Below, in pieces: positions 12,930-28,827 of a DNA stretch of 64,000 nucleotides. The position numbers were made by a program, and so were the translations under genes. How positions within the stretch are numbered: the first letter of the stretch is position 1; each line of letters starts with the position of its first letter. The stretch is from Iodidimonas sp. SYSU 1G8. Its GTDB lineage: Bacteria > Pseudomonadota > Alphaproteobacteria > SMXS01. The notes under the pieces are model-generated. The model had not been told where the DNA came from and searched no databases. It was given only the letters and a program-made list of their open reading frames with translations. The DNA is taken from NCBI RefSeq assembly GCF_039655775.1, contig NZ_JBBYXJ010000001.1, forward strand, positions 1,240,001-1,304,000. The letters run 5' to 3'.

Positions 12930-12963
12930 CGTGGTTCCCCGTTCTTCGCGTGGCGAATGGAAC

Positions 12964-12999
12964 GGGCCTCACCCACCCTGTCCCGGGTGACCGAGGCCC
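12964..12999 (-). terminator. candidate hairpin between acyl-CoA dehydrogenase and LLM gene
   Basis: GGGCCTC (12964-12970) pairs with GAGGCCC (12993-12999), and ACCC/GGGT (12971-12974/12985-12988) can extend it inward. It sits 20 nt after the stop at 13019. It could terminate or attenuate transcription into the LLM gene. There is no strong T-run. Confidence 0.4.
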
Positions 13000-13018
13000 C
13001 TTCCTTCTTCATTCAGCC

Positions 13019-14311
13019 TCAGACGTGCTCGACTTCCCGCTCGATCACATCGGCGTAGCGGCTGAGCGCCTCGGCACGCTTGGCCGGGATGTGAGCGGTG
13101 GGGAACATGCCGTTGGTGCCGTTGTATTCACGCAGCACCTGGCGCGCCACGGTCACCTTGTGCACCTCGGTCGGGCCATCGGCCAGACCCATGTGGAAGC
13201 TTTCGGTGATGAGATACGAGAACGGCATCTCGCCGGACACGCCGAGGGAGCCGTGCACCTGGAGGGCGCGGGCCGCCACATCGTGCAGGACGCGGGGCAT
13301 CATGGCCTTCACGGCCGAGATGTCCTTGCGGACCTTCATGTAGTCCTTGTAGCGGTCGATCTTCCACGCGGTCTGGAGCACGAGCAGGCGGAAGGTCTGG
13401 ATATCGGTCCACGAGTCCGAGATCTTTTCCTGGACCATCTGCTTGTTGGCCAGCAGTTCGCCCTGCGTCTCGCGCGACAGCACGCGCTCGCACATCATGT
13501 CGAAGGCCAGCTGGGCCTTGCCGATGGTGCGCATGGCGTGATGGATGCGGCCGCCGCCGAGACGGGTCTGCGCCACGGCGAATGCCTTGCCGCGCTCGCC
13601 CAGCAGGTTTTCCTTCGGCACGCGCACGTTCTCGTAGCGGATATAGGCGTGGGTGCCGGTCTCCTCGGCGCCGATGCCCACATTGCGGATGATGTTCACG
13701 CCGGGGGTGTCGGTCGGCACCAGGATCATGGACATGCGCTCATAGGGCTTGGCCTCCGGATCGGTGACGACCATCACGATCAGGAACTCGGCGTAGCGGG
13801 CGTTGGACGAGAACCACTTCTCGCCATTGATCACCCATTCGTTGCCGTCGAGGACCGCGCGGGTCTGGAACACCTTGGGATCGGCGCCGCCCTGCGGCTC
13901 GGTCATGGAGTAGCAGGACACGATGTCGTTGTTCAGCAGCGGCTCGAGATACTTCTTCTTCTGCTCGGGCGTGCCGTAATGGGCCAGGATTTCCGAGTTG
14001 CCTGTGTCCGGCGCCTGGGCGCCGAAGATGATCGGCGCGAATTTGGCGCGACCGAGAATCTCGTTCATCAGCCCCAGCTTCACCTGGCCATAGCCCTGCC
14101 CGCCCAGATCGGCGCCCAGATGGCAGCCCCACAGCTTGCGCTTCTTGACCTCGGCCTGCAGCGGCTTGATCAACTTGTTGCGCAGCGGGTCCTTCATGTC
14201 GTTCGGATGCTTGATCACGTGCTCAAGCGGCTCGATCTCGTTCTTCACGAAATCGGCAATCCAATCCAGTTGCTTCTGGAATTCCGGGTCGGTTTCAAAT
14301 TCCCAAGACAT
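13019..14311 (-). CDS. acyl-CoA dehydrogenase family protein
   Basis: 430 residues from ATG 14311; the 17 upstream codons are Arg/Gly-rich and look non-coding. The N-terminal SWEFETDPEFQKQLDWIADFV, the CYSMTEPQGGADP flavin/substrate loop, EWVINGEKWFSSNARYA and the C-terminal VHGSLGVSGEMPF and DGPTEVHKV motifs are typical of ACAD FAD flavoproteins that put an alpha-beta double bond into acyl-CoA. It belongs to a longer-chain or unusual-substrate branch. A terminator separates it from the upstream Rieske gene, so it starts its own transcript. Confidence 0.93.
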   Translation of the reverse strand: MSWEFETDPEFQKQLDWIADFVKNEIEPLEHVIKHPNDMKDPLRNKLIKPLQAEVKKRKLWGCHLGADLGGQGYGQVKLGLMNEILGRAKFAPIIFGAQAPDTGNSEILAHYGTPEQKKKYLEPLLNNDIVSCYSMTEPQGGADPKVFQTRAVLDGNEWVINGEKWFSSNARYAEFLIVMVVTDPEAKPYERMSMILVPTDTPGVNIIRNVGIGAEETGTHAYIRYENVRVPKENLLGERGKAFAVAQTRLGGGRIHHAMRTIGKAQLAFDMMCERVLSRETQGELLANKQMVQEKISDSWTDIQTFRLLVLQTAWKIDRYKDYMKVRKDISAVKAMMPRVLHDVAARALQVHGSLGVSGEMPFSYLITESFHMGLADGPTEVHKVTVARQVLREYNGTNGMFPTAHIPAKRAEALSRYADVIEREVEHV

Positions 14312-17871: not shown

Positions 17872-17954
17872 GGGCGGACCTCGCGGCTATCGATGCCGAG
17901 AGGTTAGTCCCAACGCTTTACAGGGTCGAGCGCGAACTCCACTTTGCCTCAGCC

Positions 17955-17982
17955 CGTCATTCCCGCCGATGCGGGAATGACG
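17955..17982. repeat. REP-like short palindrome
   Basis: CGTCATTCCCGC (17955-17966) and GCGGGAATGACG (17971-17982) form a perfect 12-bp stem around CGAT. GTCATTCCCGC-type palindromes are a widespread dispersed repeat in proteobacterial intergenic DNA. It sits 12 nt past the typA stop and may stabilise or end that transcript. Only this copy is seen here. Confidence 0.7.
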
Positions 17983-17994
17983 GAAGGCTGGCCT

Positions 17995-19818
<1,824 letters not shown>

Positions 19819-23898: not shown

Positions 23899-23985
23899 TG
23901 GTGCGAGCGACGGGAGTCGAACCCGTAAGCCCTGACGGGCGGCAAATTTTAAGTCTGCTGTGTCTGCCAGTTCCACCACGCTCGC
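23899..23985 (-). tRNA. tRNA-Leu (anticodon UAA)
   Basis: 87 nt with CCA encoded. The acceptor stem GCGAGCG/CGCTCGC is perfect. The anticodon stem GCAGA/TTTGC encloses the 7-nt loop CTTAAAA with TAA at its centre. A long variable arm typical of leucine tRNAs follows, and GGGTTCGACTCCC is the T arm. It reads UUA/UUG codons. No integrase or att-like duplication was seen at its 3' end. Confidence 0.95.
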
Positions 23986-25809: not shown

Positions 25810-27591
25810 TTAGTCTCTTGTCGTCCCGCTGCCTGCCGTGCCGGGATCGAGCCCGGCGGCGGTCTTCACGAGGTTGACGAACTCCGCGCGGTAGCCGTGC
25901 TCGTCACGCCCTCTGCTCTCACTCGCGAGCGCGGCGATTCGATCCCAGCCGAACTCACCCAGATAGGCGCCGTGCCGGAGTTTCTGCCCGAAGGCGGCGA
26001 CGGCGGCGGCGAAGCGAAAGTCGGCGGAGGGCGACGCCGTGCCACCGAGCAGGGTCCGGGCCAGCGGCACTTCCATCAGCGTGCTGGCCGTCTCTCCGGG
26101 TAACTTATAACGCAGCTTCACGAAGGCGAACTCTCCACCGGACGGCGCCGAGGCGGCGGGCGGCGCATAGCGCAGCGGGTCGAGGCGCAGGCCCTTCGAG
26201 CCGACCAGCGCGATTTCATACAGCGCCGTCACGGTGTGGCCGGCGCCGATCTCGCCGGCATCCACCTTGTCATTGTTGAAATCCTCGGTCTTGAGCATCC
26301 GATTCTCGTAGCCGATCAACCGGTATTCGGCGACGACGCCCGGGTTGAACTCGACCTGGATCTTGGTATCGCCGGCGATGGTGAACAGGGTCGAGCCGAG
26401 CTGTTCCACCAGCACCTTCCGGGCCTCCTGCAACGTGTCGATATAGGCGTAGGCGCCGTTGCCCACATTGGCGAGCTGTTCGGTCATCTCGTCGTTCAGA
26501 TTGCCCGTGCCGAAGCCCAGCACCGACAGGGAAACGCCGGTCGCGCGCTGGCGGGCCACATAGTCCTTCAGCGTCTCGACCCGTGTGTCGCCCACGTTGA
26601 AGTCGCCATCGGTGGCCAGGATGATGCGGTTGATACCGCCCTTGATGAACGCGCGCTGCGCCATGGCATAGGCCAGGGCGATCCCCTCGCCGCCGGCGGT
26701 CGACCCGCCTGCCCGCAACTGTTCCAGCGCCGTGAGTACCGCGCTGCGGTCGCTACCCGCCGTCGGCTCGAGCACCACGCCAGCCGCCCCGGCATAGACC
26801 ACCACCGAGATGCGGTCGTCGTCGCGCAGCTGGTTGGTCAGCATCTTCAGCGACGCGACCAGTAGCGGCAGCTTGTCGGGCGAGTCCATGGACCCGGACA
26901 CATCGAGCAGGAATACCAGGTTGGCCGGTGGCCGCGCGGCGCGAGGTGCCTCGTAGCCCTTCAAACCGATGCGCAGCAGATAGGTCTGGGCGTTCCAGGG
27001 CGTCCGCGCGACCTCGGTGGCGACCGAGAAGGGCTGCGTGCGGTCGGTGGGCGGGCGGTAGTCATAGCTGAAATAATTGATCATTTCCTCGACCCGCACG
27101 GCGTCGGCGGGCGGCAACTGGCCATCGTTCAGGAAACGCCGGACATTGGCATAGGCGCCGGTGTCGACATCGACGCTGAAGGTAGAGACCGGCTCGGCGG
27201 CGGCCTGTTTGACGGGATTGGTATCCAGCAGAGCGTAATTTTCCCTATCCTCTTCTCTGTTAAGCAAAGACAGATCAATAGAGGATGGTGGAAACTCCAT
27301 CGATACGTACTCCACTCGCGCCGAGGGATCTGGTCCTCCAATATTCATCACCGGCATGTCTATAGAAGTAATTTCCGTAGTATTGAGCGTGTATTGATAA
27401 GGCTCGTAGCGCGGCGGAGATGGAGGTGGATCAATTCTATTGATAATCTCTGCCTCCATCGGGCCATAGACCATGGCCGTGTATGAAGACGGCGTAGGGC
27501 CGACGACCAGAGAGATCTGAACAGTAGCGGCCCAAACTACCACGACGGCCATCAGGCAATAGTCATAGGCTCGCAGAATCATGTTCTGCAT
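25810..27591 (-). CDS. membrane-anchored von Willebrand factor A protein (YfbK-like)
   Basis: 593 residues from ATG 27591, which has GAGGAG 6 nt upstream; GTG 27594 is too close to that box. A hydrophobic segment (about 12-32) is followed by a Pro-rich, low-complexity stretch to ~115. The family N-domain then starts at NPVKQAAAEPVSTFSVDVDTGAY, and the vWA domain has MIDAS DVSGSM at ~230 and ATDGDFNVG later, ending in a C-terminal DUF3520-like part. Likely a periplasmic binding scaffold on the inner membrane. Codons 1-115 are clearly AT-richer than the rest. A small membrane ORF lies upstream on the same strand. Confidence 0.83.
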   Translation of the reverse strand: MQNMILRAYDYCLMAVVVVWAATVQISLVVGPTPSSYTAMVYGPMEAEIINRIDPPPSPPRYEPYQYTLNTTEITSIDMPVMNIGGPDPSARVEYVSMEFPPSSIDLSLLNREEDRENYALLDTNPVKQAAAEPVSTFSVDVDTGAYANVRRFLNDGQLPPADAVRVEEMINYFSYDYRPPTDRTQPFSVATEVARTPWNAQTYLLRIGLKGYEAPRAARPPANLVFLLDVSGSMDSPDKLPLLVASLKMLTNQLRDDDRISVVVYAGAAGVVLEPTAGSDRSAVLTALEQLRAGGSTAGGEGIALAYAMAQRAFIKGGINRIILATDGDFNVGDTRVETLKDYVARQRATGVSLSVLGFGTGNLNDEMTEQLANVGNGAYAYIDTLQEARKVLVEQLGSTLFTIAGDTKIQVEFNPGVVAEYRLIGYENRMLKTEDFNNDKVDAGEIGAGHTVTALYEIALVGSKGLRLDPLRYAPPAASAPSGGEFAFVKLRYKLPGETASTLMEVPLARTLLGGTASPSADFRFAAAVAAFGQKLRHGAYLGEFGWDRIAALASESRGRDEHGYRAEFVNLVKTAAGLDPGTAGSGTTRD

Positions 27592-27675
27592 CACTCACTC
27601 CTCGGTTCTTATTTGTCCGGCGCCTCGGCTAATGCCTGAGGCTCTGCCGTCTTACGTCACGACTGCCCGCCGGGT

Positions 27676-27802
27676 CGGCGCGGCGTGGCAACGAGCCTGT
27701 CCAAGTCGTTGCGTGGCCCACGGGGCCGAAAGGCACGCCGCGCCGGGTGCGGCGACGTGAATCCGTTCGTCGCCGGGCGGTCTTCCCGCCGGTGGGCGGG
27801 AA
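27676..27802. other. cluster of stems in the gap upstream of the vWA gene (possible structured RNA)
   Basis: CGGCGCGGCGTG (27676-27687) pairs with CACGCCGCGCCG (27734-27745). Enclosed are GCAACGA/TCGTTGC (27688-27694/27706-27712) and GGCCC/GGGCC (27715-27719/27723-27727), a branched junction; a GCC-GAAA-GGC tetraloop hairpin is an alternative to the last. Two more hairpins follow: CGGCGACG/CGTCGCCG (27750-27757/27768-27775) and TTCCCGCC/GGCGGGAA (27783-27790/27795-27802). It lies between the small ORF and the vWA gene on their shared strand. I could not match it to a known RNA family. Confidence 0.55.
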
Positions 27803-27824
27803 ATGGCTGGATGGAAGAAGCGCT

Positions 27825-27965
27825 CTAGGTGGGCGCTGCGTCAGAGTCCGCTTCGGTCTGAAGCGGCGGCGCGGATGGTCGTCGGACCGCGCTGTCGATG
27901 ACGAAATAGAAGGCCGTCATGGCGACAACCCAAACCGCGAAATATTCCCAGAAAACACTGCGCAT
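27825..27965 (-). CDS. candidate 46-residue single-helix membrane protein
   Basis: An ORF too short for most gene callers. ATG 27965 has GGGGAGG 6 nt upstream; ATG 27971 is in frame but abuts that box. The product begins MRSVFWEYFAVWVVAMTAF and continues with YFVIDSA, one membrane helix with four aromatic residues near its start, then a short basic RR and a Pro/Ala/Asp-rich tail ending at TAG 27825. It is on the same strand as the vWA membrane protein 233 nt downstream, so it might be a small partner or leader peptide. No homologue is known to me. Confidence 0.5.
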   Translation of the reverse strand: MRSVFWEYFAVWVVAMTAFYFVIDSAVRRPSAPPLQTEADSDAAPT

Positions 27966-28036
27966 CGTCATCCTCCCCAGGACCAGTTGCGTAGGTAACT
28001 ATATGAAAATATTAGCACTTGATTGCCGTCCATCCC

Positions 28037-28084
28037 GTTAAATCGGGTTCATGTACCGTTTTGCGGGATTAATTCGCGTTCATG
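28037..28084. promoter_or_regulatory. pair of operator-like repeats 31 nt apart
   Basis: On the minus strand, CATGAACCCGATTTAA (28053-28038) and CATGAACGCGAATTAA (28084-28069) share 14 of 16 bases and are offset by 31 nt, about three helical turns. They lie in the divergent gap between sfsA and the 46-residue ORF, where a regulator could control either or both. No matching regulator gene is adjacent. Confidence 0.45.
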
Positions 28085-28125
28085 CCGGGATTGCTTGCGG
28101 CTTCAATGGCTTATAGGGTCGCGCC

Positions 28126-28827
28126 ATGAAATTTCATGCTCCCCTCGTGCGCGGCACGCTGGTCCAACGTTACAAAAGATTCATGGCCGACGTGATGCTC
28201 GACACGGGCGAGACCGTCACGGCGCACTGCGCCAATTCGGGCGCCATGGCCGGGTTGAAAGAGCCGGGCTCGGTCGTCTGGCTGTCGCCGGCGGCCAATC
28301 CTGACCGCAAGCTGAAATATTCGTGGGAGCTGATCGAGGCCGATGGCGATCTGGTCGGGATCAACACCAGCCATCCCAACCACATCGTCGCGGAGGCCAT
28401 CCGCGCCGGCGCCATCGACGCGCTGACCGGCTATGGCGCGCTGCGTCAGGAAGTGAAGTATGGCAAGAATTCGCGCATCGACATCCTGCTGGAGGATGCC
28501 GGCCGACCGCCCTGCTATGTGGAAGTGAAGAACGTTCATCTGCGGCGGGGCGGCACGCTGGCCGAGTTTCCCGACGCGGTCACGGCGCGCGGTACGAAAC
28601 ACCTGCTGGAGCTGGGCGACATGGTCGAGGCCGGTCACCGGGCCGTGATGTTCTATCTGGTCCAGCGCATGGACTGCGACCGTTTCGCCATCGCCCGCGA
28701 CATCGACCCTGTCTATGATGCCGGGCTGGTCGCGGCCCGCGCGCGCGGCGTTGAAGTTCTGTGCTACGCCTGTAGACTGACGACCGAAGAAATTACCGTT
28801 GACCGCCCGCTGTCGCTGACCATTTAA
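28126..28827 (+). CDS. sfsA: DNA/RNA nuclease SfsA
   Basis: 233 residues, full length. Diagnostic SfsA motifs are the N-terminal LVRGTLVQRYKRFMADV, CANSGAMAGL, KLKYSWELIEADGDLVGINTSHPN and the nuclease-like DILLEDAGRPPCYVEVKNV. SfsA was named for sugar-fermentation stimulation and is now seen as a nucleic-acid-binding nuclease. No Shine-Dalgarno box precedes the ATG, and a TATAGG box lies only 9 nt upstream, so the transcript may be leaderless. The map gene follows after 24 nt. Confidence 0.93.
   Translation: MKFHAPLVRGTLVQRYKRFMADVMLDTGETVTAHCANSGAMAGLKEPGSVVWLSPAANPDRKLKYSWELIEADGDLVGINTSHPNHIVAEAIRAGAIDALTGYGALRQEVKYGKNSRIDILLEDAGRPPCYVEVKNVHLRRGGTLAEFPDAVTARGTKHLLELGDMVEAGHRAVMFYLVQRMDCDRFAIARDIDPVYDAGLVAARARGVEVLCYACRLTTEEITVDRPLSLTI

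Follow-up and report, generated by a model that had tools for sequence, protein, structure and literature searches.

The leaders and riboswitches collected in Rfam are conserved structured RNAs that lie upstream of a gene and show compensatory base changes. The element described here resembles them in these respects; unlike them, it matches no family at the gathering score and was found in one genus only. Target hairpins of CsrA/RsmA carry GGA in the apical loop, a trait shared by our element, but a CsrA mechanism was rejected because PF02599 was found in 0 of the 10 family genomes, while the same search was positive in 3 of 14 control genomes. Hairpins between cistrons that stabilise a message were reportedly described for the Rhodobacter puf operon by Klug and co-workers in 1987. 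A passage on this operon in PMC11354728 relates that the positions of the stabilising elements set protein ratios. As in puf, so far as that passage describes it, our locus would place structured RNA in an operon of membrane-protein genes of an alphaproteobacterium (PMC11354728); unlike it, our element is branched and covarying, has a conserved loop, and sits close to where the presumed message begins at its 5' side. The likeness to the puf intercistronic region is proposed for function only. The sRNAs ar14 and Atu_L6 are, like our element, alphaproteobacterial structured RNAs, but their Rfam matches scored far below the gathering score and fell in congener loci near the 3' end of vWA, outside the element. 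A limited literature collection, searched by titles and abstract openings, held no description of the element.

The window, i.e., the whole 64,000-nucleotide stretch that was analysed, contains the gene of a YfbK-type von Willebrand factor A (vWA) protein, preceded by a short membrane-type frame (ORF1) and facing a divergent sfsA gene (Table 1). Both ORF1 and vWA are encoded on the minus strand; the RNA to be considered therefore reads as the reverse complement of the printed letters. A gap of 233 nt separates the ORF1 stop from the ATG of vWA at 27591 (a GTG at 27594 is also possible; the Shine-Dalgarno sequence is GAGGAG), and the element lies inside this gap. All the stems that the earlier note had named between these genes are present: the 12-bp outer stem, the inner hairpins of 5 and 7+3 bp, and the two tandem 8-bp hairpins, of which the one at 27783-27802 has no counterpart in congeners by eye.

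Table 1. Features of the vWA locus, in window coordinates.
Feature	Position	Strand	Basis or remark
Whole conserved element, P1-P2-P3[P4,P5] then GCGGGCAG	about 27663..27780	-	R1 match 27663-27777; folding
Hairpin P2, 8 bp, CGGCGACG/CGTCGCCG, loop AACGGATTCA	27750..27775	-	folding
Outer stem P3, 12 bp perfect, encloses P4 and P5	27676..27745; arms 27734-27745, 27676-27687	-	
Inner hairpin P4, GGCCC/GGGCC, 5 bp	27715..27727	-	folding
Inner hairpin P5, GCAACGA/TCGTTGC, 7+3 bp, apical CUU-GGAC-AGG, bulged C	27688..27712	-	
Conserved apical sequence of P5, TGGACAGGC	27695..27703	-	identical in G000, G001, G002, G003, G006
Possible closing helix P1, 3' arm GGCGG, pairs with CCGCC	27667..27671	-	uncertain
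Possible closing helix P1, 5' arm CCGCC	27776..27780	-	pair probability
8-bp hairpin TTCCCGCC/GGCGGGAA, in the window's genome only	27783..27802	-	folding
Further hairpin GCCTC-a-GGC/GCC-GAGGC, before vWA start	27622..27642	-	sequence
ORF1, 46 aa, one membrane-helix-like stretch (by eye), MRSVFWEYFAVWVVAMTAFYFVI...	27825..27965	-	translation
YfbK-type vWA protein	25810..27591	-	Pfam vWF_A, VWA, YfbK_C over cut-off
sfsA, divergent neighbour	28126..28827	+	Pfam SfsA over cut-off
TCCTGGGGAGGA, self-complementary Shine-Dalgarno of ORF1	27971..27982	-	recurrent gene-start motif of the genus
Promoter-region direct repeat, CATGAACCCGATTTAAC	28037..28053	-	
Promoter-region direct repeat, CATGAACGCGAATTAAT, copies lie 31 bp apart	28068..28084	-	

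The 127-nt stretch that holds most of these stems has a minimum free energy of -80.5 kcal/mol on the plus and -73.4 kcal/mol on the minus strand, with z values of -3.47 and -4.73, respectively, against 200 dinucleotide shuffles per strand. Among 1006 control tiles of 127 nt, taken from both strands of the window and given 24 shuffles each, none reached -73 kcal/mol; one had a lower z than the minus-strand value and five had a lower z than the plus-strand value. Since the stretch had been picked for its stems, such a ranking alone is weak proof, and it is the comparative evidence that carries the case.

Ten genomes make up the family. G000 is that of the window, and seven of the ten belong to its genus. 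A common layout recurs in the genus, namely a hairpin followed by a long outer stem that encloses one or two hairpins. In the window, CGGCGACG/CGTCGCCG is followed by the 12-bp outer stem around two hairpins and then by GCGGGCAG. In G001, G002 and G003, the first hairpin is GCGGCGGC/GTCGCCGC, located between the ORF1 start and vWA, and two hairpins are surrounded by an outer stem of 10 bp, GCCGGTGCGG/CCGCACCGGC (G001 has one mismatch in it), after which GCGGGCAG follows again. G006 has CCGGCGGC/GCCGCCGG and then an outer stem with a single mismatched pair, GCCGGACCGG/CCGTTCCGGC, around the P5 hairpin only; no P4 arms were found in this genome. Stem by stem, P2 has an 8-bp counterpart in G001, G002, G003, G005 and G006 in a hand alignment whose register was set by hand; P3 has one in G002 and G003 and, with the mismatches just mentioned, in G001 and G006; P4 has one in G001-G003 and, with a mismatch, in the G005 remnant. 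The last enclosed hairpin, P5, carries the apical sequence UGGACAGGC, identical in all five genomes listed in Table 1.

The earlier note had named covariance analysis of homologous regions as a check on its structured RNA, and changes on both sides of stem pairs were found. The count was made on a model-fitted alignment of five copies, three of them near-identical, so that it covers three independent lineages. Here, 97.9% of 142 cells were paired, compared with 31-48% when the partners were slid by 1-3 columns, and 6 of the 32 pairs had changed on both sides, against a mean of 1.8 in shuffles (0 of 500 as high). A "further pair types" statistic was unexceptional (127 of 500). One P3 pair is U-A in G001-G003, C-G in G000 and A-U in G006, and three G-C pairs of P5 in G001-G003 correspond to A-U pairs in G000. 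Read as the vWA strand, the same alignment contains wobbles in eight cells, which belong to three pairs, while A-C cells are absent; this favours the vWA strand as the RNA. Covarying stems thus lie on the sense strand of the downstream gene, in three lineages and in an alignment fitted to the model. The hand alignment, with G005 included, gave 147 Watson-Crick, 5 G-U, 1 A-C and 2 other cells of 155, the single A-C cell belonging to the G005 remnant. Double changes are also more numerous in it than in the model alignment; however, its register was chosen by the author, so the double-change count rests on the model alignment. In a MAFFT alignment, P2 of G000 did not fall into the structural register, and this alignment was left out of the counts.

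Retrieval by models leads to the same place. A covariance model built from G001-G003 only (R1) gave one match at E<=10 in the whole 3.9-Mb genome of G000, at 27663-27777 on the minus strand (E 0.196, 27.2 bits; 150 of 442 first-look candidates scored). In G006 it gave four matches, and the best of them (E 0.343, 25.8 bits) fell at the corresponding locus. In a 93-kb set, only the training copies and the G005 remnant ranked above G000 (E 0.0047) and G006 (E 0.0082). R1 matches elsewhere in the family, presumably due to chance, reach up to 21.7 bits, so scores of 27.2 and 25.8 bits are weak by themselves. What persuades is that in both genomes the best match among millions of bases stands at the homologous place. 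A sequence-only model from the same alignment (R3) scored the window copy at 17.1 bits (next window match, 13.6) and found the G005 remnant, whereas the G006 copy was not found at E<=10. That R3 misses the G006 copy and R1 finds it indicates that both sequence and structure were kept, and that structure extends the reach of the search.

In the samples scanned, no homolog of the element was found beyond the genus. Of the three family genomes outside it, two had no R1 match and the third had a single weak one (E 4.27). Among 385 genomes of the class there were 4 matches at E<=0.05, all within the genus (the three training copies and the G005 remnant), and among 398 genomes of the phylum only the window's own genome matched; both scans used stricter filters and scored at most nine candidates per genome, and weak relatives may therefore escape them. 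In 80 of 583 vWA loci, not all of which include the stretch before the gene, model R2 had a strong match in L023 (the G001 contig) only, the next one having an E of 0.45. Direct DNA similarity gave matches in 3 of 41 genomes, own included, with the G006 match covering positions 6-76 of the 391-nt query, outside the element, and in 12 of the 385 class genomes, own included, with two candidates scored per genome. The aligned class-genome matches outside the own genome were rejected as chance, being either short or, in G268, located in coding sequence that we take to be of the RelA/SpoT type. Rfam release 15 yielded nothing at the gathering score in the window save a tRNA-Leu (23902-23985). At E<=10, the interval 27560-28126 had one 13-bit match, outside the element, and the five congener loci had 7 matches, all below the gathering score; several of the matches at this lax threshold were implausible (animal microRNAs, a viral leader). 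The failure to match tmRNA, 6S, RNase P, SRP or a riboswitch, noted earlier from the letters alone, thus holds at the gathering score in both the window and the congener loci. Overall, the comparisons support a restriction of the element to one locus in one genus, and we regard it as a good candidate for a conserved structured RNA family of narrow range.

The history of the downstream gene bears on the possible role of the element. At E<=0.001, 8 of the 10 family genomes have a match to vWA, be it the gene itself, a fragment or a weakly related gene; sfsA is present in 9. In G001, G002 and G003, vWA faces sfsA as it does in G000. In G005, vWA is reduced to its C-terminal part, fused in frame to ORF1. 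In G006, whose assembly is 84% complete, vWA has no match and approximately its last twelve codons, as read, are left between ORF1 and the next gene; the promoter region and ORF1 were kept despite the loss. It appears that vWA was lost twice at this locus within the genus, by fusion in G005 and by near-complete deletion in G006. G004 was left out, as no more of vWA than the 3' part lies on its contig and the search for sfsA was negative. All four genomes of the genus with vWA at the locus, G000 to G003, carry the full element (G001 with one mispair), while both genomes that lost vWA at the locus carry a damaged one, half deleted in G005 and without P4 in G006. Such tracking of vWA by the full element, together with the damage after vWA loss, points to a role in cis. 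The constant position before vWA within the genus agrees with a cis-acting mRNA element. For the family as a whole, the element accompanies 4 of 5 vWA-bearing loci: in G007, from a sister genus, sfsA and vWA stand side by side without ORF1 and without an element match.

We infer that the element is transcribed and functional, and we consider it slightly more probable than the opposite that it is a genus-restricted, cis-acting structured part of an mRNA running from the sfsA-facing promoter through ORF1 into vWA. Such an mRNA would start at this promoter, and the element would act in cis, folding during transcription and setting the survival or expression of the vWA message relative to ORF1. 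It might do so as a barrier to an RNase or to ribosomes, or by a protein bound at the conserved P5 loop. Simple masking of the vWA Shine-Dalgarno sequence is unlikely in G000, where the vWA start region is predicted in silico to be almost equally accessible, on average, with the element (0.51) and without it (0.53), and this mechanism was set aside as unsupported. With the element present, the start of ORF2 is predicted to be mostly paired in G003 and mostly open in G002. As for a pairing partner of the loop within the locus, exact 7-8-nt complements occur in G001, G005 and G006 only, with none in G000, G002 or G003. The regulatory part of the earlier proposal, an intercistronic regulatory element, is only plausible: it gains from the full element accompanying vWA in the genus and loses from the vWA of G007, which does without it.

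An alternative, which we consider unlikely, is that the element is a trans-acting small RNA, made alone or cut from the leader, whose exposed UGGACAGGC loop pairs or binds elsewhere. The conservation of the apical loop would suit such a function, and G006, with the promoter, ORF1 and most of the element kept without vWA, would be left with a short transcript. However, a search for promoters of the sigma-70 type found no such site in 27400-28200, and the only hairpin with a T-run in this interval (27911-27931) lies outside the element, which leaves no terminator-like site at the element itself. Moreover, the full copies precede vWA, and the two found without this gene are damaged.

A ligand- or protein-sensing switch, in which vWA expression would toggle with two mutually exclusive pairings, P1 and an extended P2, has in our view a rather low probability as well. 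The closing helix P1 is uncertain. Its predicted pair probability is 0.98-0.99 in G000 and 0.89-0.94 in G006, which favour it, and falls to 0.35, 0.26 and 0.01 in G003, G001 and G002, respectively; in G002 and G001 an extended P2 is predicted instead, in which the bases flanking P2 pair and take bases of P3. The two folds speak for the hypothesis, but they are predicted in different species and not shown together in each. Neither a terminator after the element nor a riboswitch match in Rfam was found, and the vWA start in G000 is hardly affected in silico. It is tempting to go further and suppose a new class of cis-acting RNA, confined to the genus, the fold of which is kept while the reading frame through it comes and goes, with a factor at UGGACAGGC gating vWA as an envelope protein and with a switch formed by P1, as a closed junction, and the extended P2; we would not bet on this extended version.

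The stems could also be a by-product of coding, arising from a GC-rich frame rich in Gly, Ala and Arg. In all five congeners examined, the ORF1 frame meets no stop, either across the element (G001, G002, G003 and G006) or across the G005 remnant, and in G001 and G002 it goes on into a membrane-helix-like stretch. The term "intercistronic" thus fits the window and fails in these congeners; with ORF1 open there, ribosomes may unfold the element. In the window, however, the stems persist although ORF1 ends at 27825, before the element, and the P5 loop is read in different ORF1 frames in G003 and G006. The pattern of conservation argues in the same direction. The copies of the element in G001-G003 share 112-114 of 116 nt (97-98% identity), compared with 87-90% in the next 60 nt (hairpin C), 86-89% at the vWA start, 63-74% in the transmembrane part of ORF1 and 40-52% in the ORF2 region. 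The promoter block is 92-99% identical and, between G003 and G001, as conserved (99%) as the element (98%). The 42 nt from the ORF1 start to the element are the same in G001 and G003 and 67% identical between G002 and the others. Over the 57 codons of the element and hairpin C, many of the few differing codons change the amino acid (5 of 7 for G003/G001, 3 of 6 for G003/G002 and 5 of 10 for G001/G002), which is unlike protein-level constraint. We therefore see the coding explanation as very improbable. The folded architecture (P2; P3 around P4 and P5; apical UGGACAGGC) is, as far as comparison of genomes can support it, under selection at the nucleotide level. The structured RNA suggested by the earlier note has accordingly gained from the architecture shared by congeners, the two-sided pair changes, the retrieval by R1 and a conservation above that of coding stretches.

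Least probable of all is a DNA-level element (a remnant of a mobile or palindromic repeat, a recombination site or a cruciform), to which long perfect GC-rich palindromes and the fast turnover of the ORFs after the element might point, since the own genome holds one DNA match (E<=0.001) and one model match (E<=10), both here, the locus is the same throughout the genus, and the wobble pairs fall on one strand. An interspersed repeat of the REP/MITE type was rejected on the same single copy.

Returning to the cis-acting mRNA element, if it is transcribed and functional, it would represent an RNA family unmatched in Rfam 15 with a defined anatomy and a conserved loop. These features, together with a fixed gene partner in the genus, make it directly testable. 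It would offer a handle on the control of a YfbK-type vWA protein in this genus and would show how an RNA structure can be kept while the reading frame over it changes. Its general impact is limited by its narrow distribution.

Several minor observations concern the surroundings of the element. The start of the window's ORF1 resembles that of G006 by eye. Its Shine-Dalgarno sequence TCCTGGGGAGGA, which can fold on itself, was found at 34 places in the 7 genomes of the genus (0-2 per genome for the reversed control) and at none in the 3 family genomes outside it; 23 of 30 examined loci head an ORF of at least 94 aa. As it recurs before other genes of the genus, it was rejected as a part of the element. 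At four loci (L150, L159, L171 and L172), the sequence upstream of the motif is similar, and the motif precedes a short ORF. This ORF has 22 codons and starts with MSRLARR in the first three, whereas L172 has a different one of 25 codons; these are possibly leader peptides.

The divergent promoter region between sfsA and ORF1 contains 17-bp direct repeats (CATGRACNCGANTTAAY) in 6 of the 10 family genomes, with two exact copies per genome, confined to this locus in all six. Perhaps they are tandem sites of some regulator. The vWA start of the window (27400-27591, minus strand) is without the lipoprotein-like start found in G001-G003 and resembles, by eye, a separate small membrane ORF2 of G002 and G003, so that it looks like a gene fusion.

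Elsewhere in the window, a very stable palindrome, CCGTCATTCCCGC...GCGGGAATGACGG, lies at 17880-18060, directly past the end of a minus-strand ORF that is presumably TypA/EF-G-like. Of all tiles of the window, that at 12955-13081 on the minus strand has the lowest folding z (-6.0), with a long hairpin directly past the stop of an ORF that we take to be acyl-CoA-dehydrogenase-like.
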